From: Ignavibacteriales bacterium
GTDB taxonomy: Bacteria > Bacteroidota > Ignavibacteria > Ignavibacteriales > Melioribacteraceae
Assembly (NCBI GenBank): GCA_021740915.1
Contig: JAIOYW010000002.1
Location: 1 to 64,000, forward strand
DNA: 64,000 bases
Reading direction: 5' to 3'
Made by a program: the position numbers and the translations under genes
Shown: positions 1 through 8,908 of the stretch, one piece after another
Numbering within the stretch: the first letter of the stretch is position 1
How the letters are laid out: the number at the start of each line of letters is the position of its first letter
Notes under the pieces: generated by a model
Databases searched by the model: none
Seen by the model: the letters and a program-made list of their open reading frames with translations, nothing else
Told to the model about the DNA's origin: nothing

Positions 1-2093
1 GTCGGATCGAGTTTGTACCCTTTCGCTGCTTCCCATCCCAGCCAAAGATTATGGCCATCAATTTCCTGAGGTGTATAATAGATATTGTATGTATCCTGAA
101 AATCAGCGTATTCGAATTCATAACCCAACTCGAATTCATAACGTGATTTGAATCCCAATCCAACGAGAAAGTCATTCCCAAAATTTTCTCTGGCAACGCG
201 CAGGGTGTTATTTTCAATAAAGGTTGAATTATCTACCTGGTAATAATTGTATATTGTATAAAAAGATAAACCTGAATCGTAACTCAGATTCCCCTCCCCT
301 CTGAATCTCCTGGCGACAAGCCGGTTCTGCAATAAGAGTCCGGAATCAAAAATATCAATAGCATCGCTCTGTAAAAATGAGAAATTGAGATGATAACGAT
401 TATTTCCACTGTACTTTAAACCAGCTGATAATAGACTTTTACTATTTGAAAGGGGGAAAAAAATCTGACCAAGTCCAACATACATATCTACAGGTTCCCA
501 CAATTTAAGATATATATTCCCCTCAACAGATGAATAATTAAAACCAGCATTTGTCGCGTTAAACGATCCTCGTCTCAGATTAATTCCACCCCATAGGAAT
601 TTCAGCCAGCCAATTCTTAAATTTATTCCGCCATATTTGTTATCGCAGCTCTGGTTATCAGAATAGATCCTTGCGTATGGGCGAATGTCGTAGAAGGAAT
701 TATGTAATGGTCTATCATTAAAAATCCACTCAAATTCCGAACTTCTGCGCGCATATTTATAAGATGGGGTTTTCGCATTTTTGTCAAACGCCTCGCTGCT
801 TCCAAGATTATCCTGAGCAAAATTATACACTGACTTTGCTTTCTCATACTGACCAAAATGCCTGTAACTATCTCCGACATAAACTTTTAGTTCAGCATCA
901 TTAGGAAATTTTTCACTTAATCTTAGAAATTCATCAAATGCTCTGAAACGATCCCCTGCTTTATAATATGCAATTGCTCTCATTTTATCAACTTCAGGGC
1001 TGTATTGCCTCTCGATAATTTCATCATAGAGATCAATTGCTTCGTTAAATTTCCCATTACATTCGAGTACTTCAGCAAACTCCAGTTTCAGTTGTGAATC
1101 GGGCGGATTCATTTCAAACGCTTTCACATACTCCATTTCAGCATTAACGCAGTCTCCCGAAGATTTGAGATTTCTTGCATTCTCCAATCTATCAGCATAA
1201 AGTTCATCTGAAGTTTTATAATTCTCTGAATACAAAGCCAAAAAGACAGGTAAATCTTTGTCATCTAATTCTATATCGTTAATCTTATCTTTCGCCTCAT
1301 TAAACTTATTCGTGCGAATATCGTTGGCGATTCCGGTCTTGGTTTTCATCTCCCCGGAAGGATTATAATCGGTTAGCATCTCAAAAGCTGAGTTGTCCAG
1401 AGCCTCATTACCAGTTCCGTAAAGCACTATTTTTGTCAGATACTCCAAAATGCGAGGGTCATCGGGTTCGCTTTCACTGGCTTTTTTTAATTCTTCGATA
1501 GCCTCTTCGTAATTTTGATTTGAAATAAGACTTCGTATAAATAGAAAATGAAGATCGCGGTTTAAAGGAAACGAGGAGTATAATCTGTCGGATAATTCCC
1601 GGGCTTTTTCAGTTGAACCGGCATTTATATAGAGGTCTGTCAGGTAATTGCCCACATCTAAATCAAGTGGTCCGCTATCGAGCAATAATTCGTATTTTTT
1701 TATTTCATCGTCTCCCGGATCACCGAGTTGCTCGGCAATATTCCGTTTCAGTCTCTGAAAACGTGCAGTTTCACTATAGTTTAATTCAAGGTACTGCAGA
1801 TGGAGTTTAGCTTCTTCGAACCTGCTTTCCTTGACCAGTGCAGAAATAAGTTTGAACCTGGTCTCGTAATCATTAGGATTTGAAAGGAGAATACTCAGGA
1901 ATTCATCAATTTCACCTTCGGATTTACCGGAATCAAGTTTTGGGGAGTCAAACAAAACTCCGTAAACATCCGAATCCAGATCTGCATTTAAATATTTTTG
2001 ATGAAACTCCTTACCCTCAATAATTGAGAATTCAACAATGCAAAATAGAATTAGAAGAAACCTGTGAACAAAGTTCCATCCGAACAATTTCAT
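1..2093 (-). CDS. TPR-repeat protein with C-terminal outer-membrane beta-barrel (partial, BcsC/PgaA-like)
   Basis: From the ATG at 2093 the frame stays open to the window edge, so about 697 N-terminal residues are visible and the C-terminus is missing. A hydrophobic signal lies near residues 10-26. TPR-type helical repeats follow to about residue 440, for example EEAIEELKKASESEPDD. From about residue 460 the sequence changes to alternating aromatic/polar strands (such as YGGINLRIGWLKFLWGGINL) typical of outer-membrane barrels. This order, periplasmic TPR then barrel, is that of exopolysaccharide exporters such as BcsC, PgaA or PelB. Its start overlaps the upstream stop as TAATG, implying translational coupling to the KaiC-like gene. 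A role in polysaccharide export is inferred. No synthase gene is visible; it may lie beyond the left edge. Confidence 0.8.
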   Translation of the reverse strand, partial: MKLFGWNFVHRFLLILFCIVEFSIIEGKEFHQKYLNADLDSDVYGVLFDSPKLDSGKSEGEIDEFLSILLSNPNDYETRFKLISALVKESRFEEAKLHLQYLELNYSETARFQRLKRNIAEQLGDPGDDEIKKYELLLDSGPLDLDVGNYLTDLYINAGSTEKARELSDRLYSSFPLNRDLHFLFIRSLISNQNYEEAIEELKKASESEPDDPRILEYLTKIVLYGTGNEALDNSAFEMLTDYNPSGEMKTKTGIANDIRTNKFNEAKDKINDIELDDKDLPVFLALYSENYKTSDELYADRLENARNLKSSGDCVNAEMEYVKAFEMNPPDSQLKLEFAEVLECNGKFNEAIDLYDEIIERQYSPEVDKMRAIAYYKAGDRFRAFDEFLRLSEKFPNDAELKVYVGDSYRHFGQYEKAKSVYNFAQDNLGSSEAFDKNAKTPSYKYARRSSEFEWIFNDRPLHNSFYDIRPYARIYSDNQSCDNKYGGINLRIGWLKFLWGGINLRRGSFNATNAGFNYSSVEGNIYLKLWEPVDMYVGLGQIFFPLSNSKSLLSAGLKYSGNNRYHLNFSFLQSDAIDIFDSGLLLQNRLVARRFRGEGNLSYDSGLSFYTIYNYYQVDNSTFIENNTLRVARENFGNDFLVGLGFKSRYEFELGYEFEYADFQDTYNIYYTPQEIDGHNLWLGWEAAKGYKLDP

Positions 2094-3439
2094 TAACCAG
2101 AAATTCTTGCAAGTGTCTGATAATTCTGTCCCATATTGATATCTGATTGATGTATATAGGCAATCATTGCCTCAGATGTATCCACATTGTTCGTAATTTC
2201 AATTGCCATAAAAAGCACATATTCGGTCGCAGCATTTAGGTATTCTTTATCAGAACTTGGCAAATTTGATTTCATTCCTCTTACCAGATTCAGGACCTCA
2301 TCAAATGCAGGTTTTACGGTGAGAATAAGAATTTTATCTTCCATAATGCAGATTTTATCTCTTTTACTGGTTGATCCCTTCACCGCTTGCTGCAACTGAG
2401 AATAATTAAGAAATCCTTTGACTGTAGCAGCAGGATCAAGCTTAATTGAGATAAGGTAAAACTTCTGTCCGGTACTTTTATACAGGGCTATCTGATTGCT
2501 TAGTAATAATAAAAAGTCATTATATTCATAAATATTTGAAAAAAGAAGAGAATCTTTTTGCTCAACTTCAAATTTTGCAGGCATTACCGGTGGTCTCTGG
2601 GAATTTGTCAGTCCGGTATCATTATTCTTTTTAATGAAGGTCGGCTTCTCAGCAGGTTTTTTGTCGGGCACTTCATCTACTTTTGTTGGAATTCTGTCGA
2701 TATCAACAGGTTTGTCAATGATCGGAGGTTCACCAACAAAGAGTCCATGAACGGGCATAATAGAATATTCCCCCTGAAAACGTCCCTGCGGATGTCCAAT
2801 ATTTGGGGCTATCAATACTTTCCCACCTTGGAAATTCGTCATTTCACCATCCGAATCTGATTTTTTCAGAGTAACAACACCGGTGACATAAGAGGCTAAA
2901 ATATCAACAATAGATTGTGCCTTTGGAGTAGCAGGTTCTCCTACAATAAAAAGACTGGTGATATTCTTATCTTCAATCACTTCAAGAGTATGCAGATAAG
3001 AATCCTTAAGCAGATCAAGGTTTCTAAATCCAATATAAGGTGTTATTTCATCAAACATGAGTCTTTTGGGCTTATATTGATTTACAACTGTAACAATGTC
3101 ATTGAAATATTCCATAAGATAATCATCTGCATTATAGGCATCATACAAATAATTTGGGGGTGATATCCTGACAACTATCACCAGATTCTTGCTCATATAA
3201 GCCTGGATATCAAAATTAATGGAGGCACTTTGAATCATAAGGTCACGGGGTCTCATATTTGTAAACAGAAGTGAAACCTCCTGGTTTTTAGCTGCAGAAT
3301 GAAGAAACTGCAGCCCAAGCAAAGTCCTGCCTGATTTTTTTGGTCCGATCATCAGATAACTTCCACCCTGATAAATTCCACCCCAGGAATTTTCGATAAA
3401 GTTAAAGCCAAACGGTATAAGTTTAATAGATCCAGTCAT
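2093..3439 (-). CDS. KaiC/RecA-like ATPase with degenerate GGDEF-like C-terminal domain
   Basis: 448 residues. Residues 1-235 resemble a KaiC-type RecA-fold ATPase: a P-loop-like GPKKSGRT at 32-39 and a Walker B-like LMFDE at 127-131. The P-loop has Arg where Lys is normal, so ATP hydrolysis may be lost or altered. A charged, proline-rich linker (about 240-295) leads to residues 300-395, whose strand/helix order recalls a GGDEF domain (KFYLISIKLD, then CIMEDKILILT where the active-site loop would be) without the GGDEF signature. It is probably a regulatory pseudo-enzyme. The gene sits between GH9 and the TPR-barrel gene, so control of polysaccharide synthesis or export is a reasonable inference. 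The family assignment is by pattern only. Confidence 0.65.
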   Translation of the reverse strand: MTGSIKLIPFGFNFIENSWGGIYQGGSYLMIGPKKSGRTLLGLQFLHSAAKNQEVSLLFTNMRPRDLMIQSASINFDIQAYMSKNLVIVVRISPPNYLYDAYNADDYLMEYFNDIVTVVNQYKPKRLMFDEITPYIGFRNLDLLKDSYLHTLEVIEDKNITSLFIVGEPATPKAQSIVDILASYVTGVVTLKKSDSDGEMTNFQGGKVLIAPNIGHPQGRFQGEYSIMPVHGLFVGEPPIIDKPVDIDRIPTKVDEVPDKKPAEKPTFIKKNNDTGLTNSQRPPVMPAKFEVEQKDSLLFSNIYEYNDFLLLLSNQIALYKSTGQKFYLISIKLDPAATVKGFLNYSQLQQAVKGSTSKRDKICIMEDKILILTVKPAFDEVLNLVRGMKSNLPSSDKEYLNAATEYVLFMAIEITNNVDTSEAMIAYIHQSDINMGQNYQTLARISG

Positions 3440-3467
3440 TTTTCGCCTGAGTATTTTCTCACAAAAT

Positions 3468-5111
3468 TTATTTTATAAAATATGCCATTACAAAAATGGC
3501 GGCAGCATTGGCAACAATCGTTGGTTCGTTTGAGACATAATCCATCCTGTCATCCCGGTAAACTCCTTCCTCGGTTTGAAAAGAAATGTATTTATCTCTT
3601 TTTTCATACTGAATTTTATACGAATCAAGGGCTTCCTTAGGAACAGGGCCAGCTGCAAAGCCACCGGGAAGATAACCGTTTTTTAAATATGATATCTGAT
3701 GGTGAAAATATTTTGTGAAATTGCTTCCAACATTATGAATGAATGAAACTCCCCATTGATTCTTGCCGAGCACAAAATCGCGCTGGGCATAAAGCAAGGA
3801 ATCGTATTCCGAACTTCTTGTTAATTGCTTGTAAAGAATAGCTTGCAGGGCAACTCCCATTAAAGTATGATTTGTACCCCAGCTATAATCAGCACCTTCC
3901 ATGAATAATTTTTTTCTGCTGCTATTCCTGAAATGGTCAAGATTTTGCCTTATGAAATCCCTAAATATGGGATCATATTTGGCAATCCTGTAATGAGCAT
4001 ACGAGTTAATATCCCCCCAGCTCCACCAGTAATCGGGTCCGGCAGAACGAGCATAACTCACCGCATCATCAAAATATTCTTGTCCACCAGTAGAAATATA
4101 TAGTTCTATTGCACCTAATGCAAGTTTACCTTCGAACTTACTATCCTGATACATTCCAGTTCCACTTTTATCAAGATCAGGAACATCATTACGTAAATCA
4201 TAAGTTTGTTTTGCAGAAGCCAGACATTTATCTGCAAATTCAATATCCTGAAATCTTGTTCGCCAAATCCTGGAAGCGAGCGCCATCGTTGCCGAATATA
4301 TGCCGATAAGGTTTTTGCCAGTACCTGTAAATGCGGGTCGGTCAAATTCAAGCGGATCGTTCTCCGGTAATCTCCACCCGACCTCATGGTCACGCATATC
4401 CTGTACCTGAGTAATAAACAGGTCGTCTCTGAAATGGGCTCTATGCAGCCAGTCAAGACCTACTCGGCACTCCTGAAGAATATCCGGAGCTCCGTCTTTA
4501 TCCTTGTCAAATTCAAACTTCTGATTATCATAATCGTAGGAAAACAACAAAGTATAAGTTGTGTAAGCAATTGTATTAAAAAATTTTATGTAATCAGCAG
4601 CATCATGCCAACCGCCGGTGACATCTTCTGTCTGTCGGTTTACCCTTTTTCCGAACAGCAGAGACGTAGCATCTGCTTTATGGCAAATATCATGAAAAAA
4701 CGGTGAAGTGAAGCCGCATCGCTGAACCTTAAAGAATTGGAGCAATGTATCAACCAGGCCGACATATGTGCTCGCCCCAACCTCGAACGGAAAGGAGTCA
4801 CTATCCTTAATTCTGACAGAAAATTCTCCGCGGGATTTGAATTCAGTAAATGAAAAATCATAAATGAAATCGAAATTGTTCAATCGTTTTTGAGTACGGC
4901 GTAATTGTCCCGAGTGTACGGCTTTTCCTGTCTGGACGCTAATGATTTCAAATTTATTTTTATCGAGATTCTGCTCGGAAAGAACCACACCGATTTTTTG
5001 GTCCGTCAACAAATACCCGACTTGACTAAGTCGGATGTGAATACCTGAAGCTAGGCTATTTGAAGTGAAAAATAGCAGATATATAATTAAGCCATTTAGG
5101 AAGTTTCTCAT
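3468..5111 (-). CDS. glycoside hydrolase family 9 endoglucanase-like protein
   Basis: 547 residues with an N-terminal signal peptide (about 1-22), an Ig-like N-terminal domain (QVGYLLTDQKIGVV at about 31-44) and a GH9 (alpha/alpha)6 catalytic domain. The GH9 hallmark GGWHDAADYIKF is present, with candidate catalytic-base Asp at about 170 and 173. The C-terminal YVSNEPTI holds the expected acid Glu at about 529. GH9 enzymes cut beta-1,4-glucans with inversion. The protein is exported. Its ATG overlaps the upstream stop by four bases (ATGA). Next to a TPR-barrel exporter it could play the part that GH8 BcsZ plays in cellulose operons, although GH9 also occurs in plain cellulose degradation. Confidence 0.9.
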   Translation of the reverse strand: MRNFLNGLIIYLLFFTSNSLASGIHIRLSQVGYLLTDQKIGVVLSEQNLDKNKFEIISVQTGKAVHSGQLRRTQKRLNNFDFIYDFSFTEFKSRGEFSVRIKDSDSFPFEVGASTYVGLVDTLLQFFKVQRCGFTSPFFHDICHKADATSLLFGKRVNRQTEDVTGGWHDAADYIKFFNTIAYTTYTLLFSYDYDNQKFEFDKDKDGAPDILQECRVGLDWLHRAHFRDDLFITQVQDMRDHEVGWRLPENDPLEFDRPAFTGTGKNLIGIYSATMALASRIWRTRFQDIEFADKCLASAKQTYDLRNDVPDLDKSGTGMYQDSKFEGKLALGAIELYISTGGQEYFDDAVSYARSAGPDYWWSWGDINSYAHYRIAKYDPIFRDFIRQNLDHFRNSSRKKLFMEGADYSWGTNHTLMGVALQAILYKQLTRSSEYDSLLYAQRDFVLGKNQWGVSFIHNVGSNFTKYFHHQISYLKNGYLPGGFAAGPVPKEALDSYKIQYEKRDKYISFQTEEGVYRDDRMDYVSNEPTIVANAAAIFVMAYFIK

Positions 5112-5749
5112 CTAACTTCTTTCCCACCTTTTTCTTCTTTGAAACTTGTTCCGAATACATAATCCCATGTGGGCTGACTCACTCCATAGCCCTTTTGACT
5201 GTTCTTATAATGATGTAGAAAATGATGGTTTTTTATTGCGATCCAGAATTTACTTCTAAAATTATAATGGTGAACGGCATAATGGGTCATATCATAAAAA
5301 ATATAACCAGCTAAAAAACCAGAGAAAAGTATTGAATTAATCTCAACACCAAATATATATATGAACAAGAACCAGAAAAAAGCAGCTAATGGCAAACTAA
5401 CTGCCGGAGGCATGACTAATCGTTTTGAATCATTTGGATAGTCGTGATGAACGCCATGAATTAAAAAGTGTATTCTCTTGCCGAAGTCTGATTTGAAATT
5501 AAAGTGAAATAGAAATCGGTGAAGAGTGTATTCTGTAAACGTCCATACTACCAGTCCAAAAATGAAATATATAATCACAGATTTTGTATCTAATTGGAAT
5601 TCTGCCACTCCCCAATATAAAAGGGTTAGAATAATTGGGACAAAAACGAACAGAGGAACACTCCAATGAACTTTGGAGAGTGACTCAAGAAGATTATTGC
5701 CAAAAAGTCTTGCTGACTCGTCTTTGTTTGAAATGTATTTTTTTGTCAT
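5108..5749 (-). CDS. fatty acid 2-hydroxylase-like membrane di-iron enzyme
   Basis: 213 residues with hydrophobic segments near 30-50, 57-75, 116-134 and 138-155. The eight-histidine pattern of the fatty acid hydroxylase/sterol desaturase superfamily is complete: HRFLFH (77-82), HFLIHGVHH (94-102), HYAVHH (156-161) and HHFLHHY (175-181). RLVMPP, YDMTHY and GYGV..P.WDYVFGT resemble the sphingolipid fatty acid 2-hydroxylases (FA2H/Scs7), here without the cytochrome b5 domain that many eukaryotic members have. It probably 2-hydroxylates a fatty acyl chain, perhaps of a sphingolipid or ornithine-type lipid. GGGGGAAG lies just upstream of the ATG. The reason for its position before GH9 is unclear. 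Confidence 0.82.
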   Translation of the reverse strand: MTKKYISNKDESARLFGNNLLESLSKVHWSVPLFVFVPIILTLLYWGVAEFQLDTKSVIIYFIFGLVVWTFTEYTLHRFLFHFNFKSDFGKRIHFLIHGVHHDYPNDSKRLVMPPAVSLPLAAFFWFLFIYIFGVEINSILFSGFLAGYIFYDMTHYAVHHYNFRSKFWIAIKNHHFLHHYKNSQKGYGVSQPTWDYVFGTSFKEEKGGKEVR

Positions 5750-5835: not shown

Positions 5836-6960
5836 TTAAAGTTTTTTAATTCCGATTCCCGGGAGATCAGTTAATTGAATTTTACCATCAACTACCTTTA
5901 CACCGTCAAATATATCATTACTGATCAAAAGGTTTCCATCGAGATCGGCCCAATCCACCATTGGTGATAATTGCGCTGCGGCAGAGATCGCACATGAGGT
6001 TTCTGTCATGCAGCCTAACATAACTTTCATGTTCAACGCTTTCGCTAGATTTAGCATTTTATGGCCTTCCCGCATTCCGGTACATTTCATATATTTGATA
6101 TTTATACCTGAATAGATTCCATGTGCTTTGATTACGTCTTCGAGTCTTTGCACTGACTCATCTCCGACGATCGGCAGTGGTGAATTTTCCGTCAGCCATG
6201 CAATATCATCAATCTGATCTTTTGGCATTGGCTGTTCAACGAATAATGTTTTTCTTTCATTTAACCAATGAACCATCTCAAGAGCATGATTTTTATCTTT
6301 CCATCCCTGGTTGACATCAACAGTGAGAGGGGTCTGACTGACTGAACGTATTGTTTCAACCATTTCTTTATCATTATCGAGTCCCATTTTAACCTTAAGG
6401 ACCTTATACTGTTCTGCTTCTTTCACTTTCTGGCGAACAATTTCCGGAGTATCGATTCCGATAGTAAAAGATGTATAGGGTGTTTTGGTTTTATCGTAAC
6501 CCCATATCTTATACCAGGGCTGCCCCATAATTTTACCTGTCAGGTCATGCAGAGCAATATCAACGGAAGCTTTGGCGGCTTTATTGCCCGGGGCTATATC
6601 ATCAATATAATCAAGAATATTTTCAATATCGAAAGGATCACTGAACCTTCCTAATTCAACCTTCGATAAAAAGGACATAACTGACTCGTGAGACTCGCCA
6701 AGATAAGGTGGCATTGACGCCTCCCCGTATCCTGTGTAACCCTCATAATTAATCTCTGTAAGTACTACCGGTGTAGTTTTTCTGCTTCCACTGGCTATAG
6801 TAAAAACATGCCTGAGTTCAAGTGTATATGGATAAAATTTTAGTTCCATTTTTCCGCCCTGTGATTTTAAAAGATTCATCCCATAACTCCTGCCACCGAA
6901 GAGTAATCCACCAGTCAGCAAAGTACCGGCTTTTAATAAATCGCGTCTTGTCAAACCCAT
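5836..6960 (-). CDS. Tat-exported dipeptide (L-Ala-D/L-Glu-type) epimerase, enolase superfamily
   Basis: 374 residues. The N-terminus has a twin-arginine signal (TRRDLLKAG at about 4-12, then a hydrophobic stretch), so the enzyme should be exported folded. The enolase-superfamily machinery is intact: KVK at 189-191, metal ligands near Asp215 (VDVNQGW), Glu242 (FVEQP) and Asp267 (VGDES), and a Lys in NIKYMK near 289. The DLD motif at about 339-341 matches the DxD that binds the dipeptide amino group in Ala-Glu epimerases. It lies head-to-tail with the NlpC/P60 peptidase gene, with no gap. The pair fits murein-peptide processing. Most characterised relatives are cytosolic, so the Tat signal is notable. 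Confidence 0.85.
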   Translation of the reverse strand: MGLTRRDLLKAGTLLTGGLLFGGRSYGMNLLKSQGGKMELKFYPYTLELRHVFTIASGSRKTTPVVLTEINYEGYTGYGEASMPPYLGESHESVMSFLSKVELGRFSDPFDIENILDYIDDIAPGNKAAKASVDIALHDLTGKIMGQPWYKIWGYDKTKTPYTSFTIGIDTPEIVRQKVKEAEQYKVLKVKMGLDNDKEMVETIRSVSQTPLTVDVNQGWKDKNHALEMVHWLNERKTLFVEQPMPKDQIDDIAWLTENSPLPIVGDESVQRLEDVIKAHGIYSGINIKYMKCTGMREGHKMLNLAKALNMKVMLGCMTETSCAISAAAQLSPMVDWADLDGNLLISNDIFDGVKVVDGKIQLTDLPGIGIKKL

Positions 6961-8145
6961 TTATTTTCCCGTATAAAAATTATGATTACTAATTGAATAA
7001 ACATCGTTATTGTCAACAGAGGTTAGAATTCGTCTTGCACGGATAAATGTATCATGACGATATTTATTATAATTTGATTTTTTTCGGTCAAAACTGTCAA
7101 TTCTTACTCTGCCCGAAGAATGGATAAAATCCTGATCACCAAGATAAATGGCAACATGGGTTATTCTTTCTTTTTTAATTTCATCACCTTTGGTTCCAAA
7201 AAAAAGCAGATCACCCGCTAAAAGGTTCTGAAAATCCTTTCCGGTATCAATCTGCCCACCGGAATTAACCTGCTGAGAGGCATCCCGCGGGAGGATCAGT
7301 CCATTAAGGAAATAAACTGTTTTCGTAAATCCACTGCAATCCACACCTTTAGTTGAAGTGCCTCCCCAAAGATATGGAAGACCCATCATTGTCTTTGCCG
7401 TCTCAACAATTGAATTACCATCCGGTGAAAGCATTTTTAACCATTGATTAAATCTTTGACATTCATTTTTATTGACATAACCAGATCGACCATCCGGAAT
7501 CATTACCTCAAAATATTCTGATCCTTCACCAATAAGTTTTAGAATGTTACCTGCTACCAAATCCGAAATTTTTTCACCCCTGCAATCGGAATTTTTGAAG
7601 AGACTGCCAGTCTCAGCAATAAAAATGACCCGATCCGAATTGAGCCAGTCGCCCAATTCATTTTTATTCACAGAATAGAATCCGTCGTCATCAATCCATG
7701 CAATATAATTATCGGGCGTCTGCACAAGGTAGAAGCCGGATTCTTTCTTCAGAACTTTTACAGGAGTACCCATTAATGCCTGTGTCGCCAACTCTGCAGA
7801 ATGTGCTGGTTTACTTCTTATATTCGCTACGGAAAGACTAACAATTCCATATGTTTTATCCCCGAGAGAGGCGTCAGGCAGAAGATTAATTTTATCCATA
7901 AATATAATTCCTGCTTTAGTTAGCTCGTCTGAGAGTCTGCTTTTTGCTTCAGGCAGATTTGTTTCTCCCTTCAAAATAATTCTATTATCTGTTATTTCAG
8001 TTTCTATTTCAAATAGAGCAGTTCTTTTATCCGGAGCAAACATTTTTTTGACCTGAGAGATAATTTTGACAGGATCTGTTTCCGTGGATTGTGCTGATAT
8101 TGTATTCATAAGAATAAGACTGGTTAATATTAATAGAACTTTCAT
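6961..8145 (-). CDS. secreted NlpC/P60 cell-wall peptidase with SH3-like domains
   Basis: 394 residues. A signal peptide (1-19) is followed by a region of unknown role (20-95), two bacterial SH3-like segments (about 98-160 and 172-228) and an NlpC/P60 catalytic domain (245-372). The catalytic Cys270 lies in VDCSGF, with His330 in ITHVAIYLG and His342 completing the site. Enzymes of this architecture (dipeptidyl-peptidase VI/YkfC type) cleave gamma-D-Glu-diamino acid bonds in stem peptides and release L-Ala-D-Glu, which the downstream epimerase could convert. Its stop directly abuts the epimerase ATG, which supports a shared pathway. Confidence 0.88.
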   Translation of the reverse strand: MKVLLILTSLILMNTISAQSTETDPVKIISQVKKMFAPDKRTALFEIETEITDNRIILKGETNLPEAKSRLSDELTKAGIIFMDKINLLPDASLGDKTYGIVSLSVANIRSKPAHSAELATQALMGTPVKVLKKESGFYLVQTPDNYIAWIDDDGFYSVNKNELGDWLNSDRVIFIAETGSLFKNSDCRGEKISDLVAGNILKLIGEGSEYFEVMIPDGRSGYVNKNECQRFNQWLKMLSPDGNSIVETAKTMMGLPYLWGGTSTKGVDCSGFTKTVYFLNGLILPRDASQQVNSGGQIDTGKDFQNLLAGDLLFFGTKGDEIKKERITHVAIYLGDQDFIHSSGRVRIDSFDRKKSNYNKYRHDTFIRARRILTSVDNNDVYSISNHNFYTGK

Positions 8146-8158
8146 ATTTATTAAAACT

Positions 8159-8908
8159 TCAATTGTTATAATTCACAAGAATAAGGGAGATATTATCCTC
8201 ACCACCTGCCTTTTTTGCTCTATCAACTATCTCATTACTTCCAAAATCATTTCTGAGCAAATTTTCAATAGTCTTATCATCGAGCATATCTGTCAGACCA
8301 TCACTGCAGAGCAGGAGCATATCATCTTCCATAAGTATATCACTAATATATTCAAAGTCGATAAAAACATCTTTTCCGGCGCCGATAGAATTATAAATAA
8401 CATGGGAATTTTCCCGTTCAAAACCGGCTATCTCAGATATTGAATGATCCCTTGAAACCTGCCTGAGAATACCTTTCCTATACCTATATAACCGGCTGTC
8501 TCCGGCATTTATGTAAAATACTTTGTTGTCGTAAAAAAGTAGTGCAACAATTGTTGAGCCCATGTTCTTTTTAGTGCTGTCTGATTCACTAAATTCATTT
8601 AAAGCCTTGTGAACTTCCAAAGTGATTTTTTCAAATTTTTCGGACAGATTTTCAAAACTTAACCCAGGCTCAAGACTTCTGCTAAGAACAAGATACTTAT
8701 CAAGAACAAGTTCACTTGCAATTTCACCAGCACTGTGACCTCCCATTCCATCAGCAACCGCTATCAATAATGGAGCTCCGGGAAGGGACAAGTCAATTTC
8801 AAACTGTTGTTCAGCATCCCGTAGAAGGTACTCGCCGACTAATATCATATCTTCATTCTTCTTTCTGATATTACCGACGTCGCTGGCTGCATCAACAAAA
8901 AGGTACAT
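8159..8908 (-). CDS. PP2C-type serine/threonine protein phosphatase
   Basis: 249 residues covering a single PPM/PP2C domain. Metal-binding motifs are present: the N-terminal D.G..R..NED pattern (DVGNIRKKNED at about 10-20), VADGMGGHSAGE near 51-62, NAGDSRLYR near 132-140, LLCSDGLTDML and the C-terminal GGEDNISLIL. It removes phosphate from Ser/Thr in the cytoplasm. No partner Ser/Thr kinase gene is visible in the window. It is the first gene of the minus-strand run and is divergent from the gene starting at 8986 across 77 bp. Confidence 0.9.
   Translation of the reverse strand: MYLFVDAASDVGNIRKKNEDMILVGEYLLRDAEQQFEIDLSLPGAPLLIAVADGMGGHSAGEIASELVLDKYLVLSRSLEPGLSFENLSEKFEKITLEVHKALNEFSESDSTKKNMGSTIVALLFYDNKVFYINAGDSRLYRYRKGILRQVSRDHSISEIAGFERENSHVIYNSIGAGKDVFIDFEYISDILMEDDMLLLCSDGLTDMLDDKTIENLLRNDFGSNEIVDRAKKAGGEDNISLILVNYNN

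Follow-up and report, generated by a model that had tools for sequence, protein, structure and literature searches.

A KaiC-like protein fused to a degenerate GGDEF fold in a conserved Ignavibacteriales gene set: a candidate scaffold or sensor of exopolysaccharide export

The locus and its partner genes

The window, a stretch of 64,000 nucleotides, opens contig C31 of a 4.35 Mb genome in 35 contigs, and its left edge is the contig end. The nearest named relatives of the host genome are Melioribacteraceae, which belong to the Ignavibacteria. Four genes lie on the minus strand in the transcription order fatty acid hydroxylase-like gene, GH9, KaiC-like gene and TPR gene, the last running off the contig. 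The features of the locus are as follows.

3..2093, minus strand: predicted TPR-barrel outer-membrane exporter, first 697 aa; the rest lies on contig C26
2093..3439, minus strand: KaiC/GGDEF-like protein, 448 aa (open reading frame, PF06745 match, AlphaFold2 model, 33-member family)
2096..2539, minus strand: GGDEF-fold domain, residues 301-448 (AlphaFold2 model and Foldseek)
2330..2344, minus strand: MEDKI at the place of the GGDEF signature, residues 366-370, on the hairpin joining the two central strands
2357..2368, minus strand: I-site position, reading SKRD instead of RxxD, residues 358-361
2540..2716, minus strand: disordered linker, residues 242-300 (pLDDT <50, not conserved)
2735..3439, minus strand: KaiC/RecA-fold domain, residues 1-235 (AlphaFold2 model, Foldseek matches in the PDB)
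3047..3064, minus strand: Walker B-like RLMFDE, residues 126-131, with F129, D130 and E131 invariant
3251..3256, minus strand: Met62-Arg63, in an invariant MRP.D motif, at the KaiC catalytic Glu-Glu site (alignment to KaiC)
3323..3346, minus strand: Walker A in altered form, GPKKSGRT, with Arg in place of Lys, residues 32-39 (alignment)
3468..5111, minus strand: GH9 glycosidase with a CelD_N domain, an N-terminal signal sequence and DAADY and NEP motifs
5108..5749, minus strand: fatty acid hydroxylase-like gene in the same transcription unit, sharing 4 bases with GH9

The junctions are tight: ATGA between the fatty acid hydroxylase-like gene and GH9, 28 bases between GH9 and the KaiC-like gene, and a TAATG stop-start overlap between the latter and the exporter gene. 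The original prediction had placed a KaiC-like protein, joined to the exporter gene by this overlap, between GH9 and a TPR-barrel gene. Its observations (genes, coordinates and domains) are confirmed; the interval that it gave, 2093-5111, takes in GH9 as well. A fatty acid hydroxylase-like gene also stands upstream of GH9 in one relative (L002). Further upstream of the operon, window positions 5836-8908 encode a protein of epimerase/enolase fold whose start resembles an RR signal, an NlpC/P60-like hydrolase and a PP2C-like phosphatase; the starts of all three genes are found again in another relative (L113).

A search beyond the left edge, where the original prediction had asked for a polysaccharide synthase to be looked for, was successful. 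In relatives a GT2 glycosyltransferase gene is found downstream, and a homologue of it closes contig C26. The final 48 bases of that contig are exactly the first 48 of C31, and the TPR frame stays in phase across the join until it reaches a stop codon, so that the whole protein is ~770 aa long. Beyond the TPR gene, C26 encodes the GT2, SM (168 aa, one TM segment), DEAC (631 aa, a membrane protein with a NodB-like region), an FN3 protein (608 aa) and a PAS histidine kinase. The GT2 motifs DGD, ED and QRYRW are intact. Its best NCBIfam match is PgaC/IcaA (E=1.4e-61), with a score of 208.6 bits that is far under the PgaC cut-off of 422.3. The processive-type GT2 with D, ED and QxxRW and the predicted TPR-barrel exporter together qualify the gene set as a synthase-dependent exopolysaccharide system. 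The frame of the host GT2 gene (L065, 10466-11870) is broken at an 8-base homopolymer, either by an assembly error or by real loss.

SM has an almost invariant N-terminal TM segment, a long, variable, disordered tail and a conserved C-terminal motif, RYT.(E/D)GY...L(R/K)WR or EYTDEGF...AWL. In DEAC (L065, 8052-9947) and its orthologues, the histidine metal ligands are lost in the proteins compared; this NodB-like protein is therefore probably a third dead enzyme of the gene set.

A KaiC fold with altered catalytic sites

The N-terminal domain matches the KaiC family PF06745 with E=1.1e-19 and 71.2 bits against a cut-off of 26.6, and KaiC chains in the PDB match the window protein by sequence (E=1e-15). 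A full-length AlphaFold2 model, built on 33 family members, retrieves KaiC from the PDB in Foldseek (E=6e-14) and also the archaellum protein ArlH/FlaH (4yds, TMt 0.83). The protein has no TM segment.

By score and fold the domain belongs to the KaiC ATPase family, but the Walker A lysine and the catalytic glutamates are lacking. The altered P-loop is a trait of the family: arginine takes the lysine position in 31 of the 33 homologues of the order, and L026 and L028 have lysine. Three homologues in all keep the lysine (L026, L028 and L110). In L110 (7148-9265) the KaiC-like gene is a tandem duplicate; one copy is without the GGDEF-like domain and the other has the lysine Walker A (GKT). The threonine of the P-loop GRT is kept in this order. 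Because of these three homologues and this threonine, the domain may still bind nucleotide.

A GGDEF fold without its signature motifs

Modelled alone, the C-terminal domain has a pLDDT of 89.6, and ranks 1-37 of its Foldseek matches in the PDB are GGDEF or diguanylate cyclase structures (best E=2.3e-5, probability 1.00), which bears out the worn GGDEF-like domain of the original prediction. The fold is settled by this match of the structure model; sequence-only tests did not settle it. A Pfam search of the domain returned no family for the window protein; among the 33 homologues, two gave a GGDEF match, with a best E of 0.13. AP-2 adaptin matches from the sequence-only searches (Pfam and PDB profile) were judged to be chance. 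Homology to the single GAF-GAF-GGDEF protein of the host was not found by hhalign.

Compared with GGDEF diguanylate cyclases (PF00990), the fold is present but the GG[DE]EF active site is replaced by MEDKI or DNKVI in the family. None of the 33 proteins of this order has an RxxD I-site, and a conserved [KR][KR][DE]K stands at its former place. Since Walker A, Glu-Glu, GGDEF and RxxD are all lost, both domains look catalytically dead.

Conservation of the gene set

Among 58 genomes of the order, the KaiC-like gene is found in 51 and GT2 in 50; 49 have both and six neither (Fisher p=5e-6, phylogeny ignored). The two genes lie within 10 kb on one contig in 41 of the 49. The order GH9, KaiC-like gene, TPR gene is kept in all 33 KaiC-like loci examined, so the arrangement is not due to chance. 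In one genus (G036, G038) this unit stands apart from GT2; the KaiC-like gene is therefore tied most tightly to the exporter.

The set of KaiC-like gene, TPR gene, GT2, SM and DEAC recurs in a second class of the phylum. GH9 was not seen in the flanks examined of the second-class cassettes. Their P-loop is further decayed, the threonine being gone in most P-loops read. Their C-terminal domain gives a weak GGDEF_2 match (E=0.00065), and 12 of 18 homologues have RxxD at the I-site.

Comparison with known secretion systems

BcsE has been described in enterobacterial cellulose systems and senses c-di-GMP. In E. coli it is built from a KaiC/RecA-like dead NTPase, a degenerate REC domain and a degenerate GGDEF domain, and acts within a polysaccharide secretion system (PMC7439463, PMC11470070). 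The original prediction knew of no described equivalent of the fusion; BcsE is one. Like BcsE (PF10995; E. coli Type II Bcs cellulose secretion), the window protein is cytosolic, with a dead RecA/KaiC-like N-terminus and a degenerate GGDEF C-terminus. Both systems are synthase-dependent, export through a TPR-barrel protein, and include a glucanase and a short partner with one TM segment (PMC7439463, PMC11470070). In E. coli, BcsE is recruited to the membrane by BcsF, whose tail adds a strand to the sheet of the BcsE NTPase-like domain (PMC11470070).

The differences are considerable: the proteins of this order have neither the REC domain nor RxxD, and their hosts are almost without c-di-GMP proteins. 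No receiver domain fits between the NTPase-like and GGDEF-like domains of the AlphaFold2 model, where the disordered linker of ~60 residues is far too short for one. A homology search between the window protein and BcsE was negative (BLASTP E=1.1; hhalign probability 0.2%), as was a PF10995 search in which E. coli BcsE, the control, scores 756.7 bits. No BcsQ, BcsR or PilZ-type synthase was seen in the cassette. The window protein shares with BcsE the dead NTPase-like N-terminal domain; because family score, REC domain and I-site fail, it is called BcsE-like in build, not a BcsE.

Other systems share parts of the plan. In PelD and Listeria PssE, which are membrane-tied c-di-GMP receptors, a degenerate GGDEF domain likewise regulates synthase-dependent exopolysaccharide; the present protein differs in having a KaiC domain, no TM segment and no I-site. 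The poly-GlcNAc systems PgaABCD and IcaADBC resemble the cassette in a GT2 of the PgaC/IcaA type, a TPR-barrel exporter and a NodB-like protein. The GT2 here falls below the PgaC cut-off, however, the NodB-like protein is without its histidine ligands, and GH9 and the KaiC-like protein have no counterpart there. The N-terminal domain belongs with KaiC and ArlH (FlaH) in fold and in sequence family, but it is a single KaiC domain, has arginine for lysine in Walker A and Met-Arg for the catalytic Glu-Glu, and is fused to a GGDEF-like domain. In the literature searched, which comprised open-licence papers, neither a KaiC-type exopolysaccharide regulator outside Bcs nor the cassette as a whole was found.

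Cyclic dinucleotide machinery of the hosts

PilZ and EAL domains were found in none of the 58 genomes of the order, in searches whose positive controls worked. A GGDEF protein occurs in 57 of the 58, one in each; G007 has a second, partial match. The motif is destroyed in all 20 copies inspected. The only GGDEF match of the host is a GAF-GAF-GGDEF protein of ~627 aa (L001, 97-1980; G000:C14:89356-89814) with the motif destroyed (FGRIDKHLFG), and one match of this type is present in nearly every relative (57/58), genomes free of the cassette included. The order thus keeps a conserved dead GGDEF protein without recognizable c-di-GMP signalling.

In 17 of 18 second-class genomes with the cassette, GGDEF, PilZ and EAL gave no match; the remaining one (G226) encodes a single GGDEF-EAL protein with an intact motif. 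The RxxD of the second class is puzzling because those 17 genomes are without GGDEF proteins. It may be left over from an ancestor that sensed c-di-GMP, or these residues may serve another purpose. A further proposal, that in this order the loss of c-di-GMP and of the I-site went together, is weakened, since the second class keeps RxxD in 12 of 18 proteins yet also lacks GGDEF proteins.

A c-di-AMP cyclase domain is present in 20 of 20 relatives. In two genomes of one genus, a second cyclase-like (DAC) gene lies ~9-12 kb from the KaiC-like and TPR genes (L146, 1574-3028; L147, 15580-17025); it is possible that this gene hints at the ligand.

Proposed role and alternative explanations

On balance we lean towards reading the KaiC/GGDEF-like protein as a scaffold or sensor that resembles BcsE, is catalytically dead, and serves a new exopolysaccharide system working without c-di-GMP. 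Counted in favour of the scaffold are the co-occurrence, the gene order, the recurrence in a second class, the folds, the dead sites, the intact GT2 motifs, the conserved TM segment and C-terminal motif of SM, the missing c-di-GMP machinery and the precedent of BcsE and BcsF; counted against it are the lysine Walker A of L026, L028 and L110, the conserved GRT threonine and the RxxD of the second class. The protein would act in the cytosol as a regulatory scaffold for a synthase-dependent exopolysaccharide machine. (i) GT2 would polymerize and translocate the polymer. (ii) Export of the chain would fall to the TPR-barrel protein. (iii) GH9 would trim the polymer, in the way proposed for BcsZ and cellulose. 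(iv) SM is read as an anchor with a docking peptide, because its TM segment is almost invariant and its variable tail ends in a conserved motif; by analogy with BcsF and BcsE, it may hold the KaiC-like domain at the inner membrane. (v) The KaiC/GGDEF-like protein would position or gate the synthase together with the exporter, its GGDEF-like domain contacting the synthase or a partner, again by analogy. It could be a pure scaffold without a small ligand, or could bind a different nucleotide at the modified P-loop or at the lysine- and arginine-rich former I-site.

The original prediction, a nucleotide-sensing gate for export, is partly supported: a gate with a ligand other than c-di-GMP is possible. 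As a model of its own, a sensor of another nucleotide (c-di-AMP, ppGpp, ATP or a UDP-sugar) that gates synthase or exporter seems rather unlikely. The conserved loop K/R-K-[ST]-G-[RK]-T, the conserved FDE and the basic cluster at the former I-site would suit a ligand, and the c-di-AMP cyclases of the relatives would supply one; the proteins show no known receptor motif, however, and the second DAC gene near the cassette was seen in one genus only. We consider it doubtful that the protein forms an ArlH/FlaH-like KaiC ring, an oligomeric platform that binds and hardly hydrolyses ATP, with the GGDEF fold as a dimerization module only. FlaH is among the structural matches, and FDE and the P-loop threonine are kept in the order, but the Walker A lysine is lost in 31 of 33 proteins and the threonine in most second-class P-loops read. 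A switch of export by c-di-GMP bound to the GGDEF-like domain, as originally proposed, draws on the fold, on the precedents of BcsE, PelD and PssE and on the second-class RxxD, but goes against three observations: intact GGDEF proteins are almost entirely missing, the order has no PilZ or EAL, and its proteins have no I-site, so that c-di-GMP is very unlikely as the ligand and this gate is the most improbable of the models.

Our preferred reading, the dead scaffold or sensor, has a bolder extension, which we regard as unlikely: an exopolysaccharide system of two classes of the phylum in which the cyclase-fold sensor of a BcsE-like regulator was re-assigned from c-di-GMP to another nucleotide, such as c-di-AMP, and gates export. 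If true, polymer export would be nucleotide-gated without c-di-GMP in a previously undescribed secretion system. A dead RecA-like domain is here paired with a dead GGDEF-like domain in an unrelated-looking cassette, in hosts apparently without c-di-GMP. Conservation of the gene set suggests that the polymer is an uncharacterized one. The pairing may serve polysaccharide machines generally as a scaffold, or it may descend from a c-di-GMP sensor that outlived its signal, and either reading makes the role of pseudoenzymes in polymer secretion testable.
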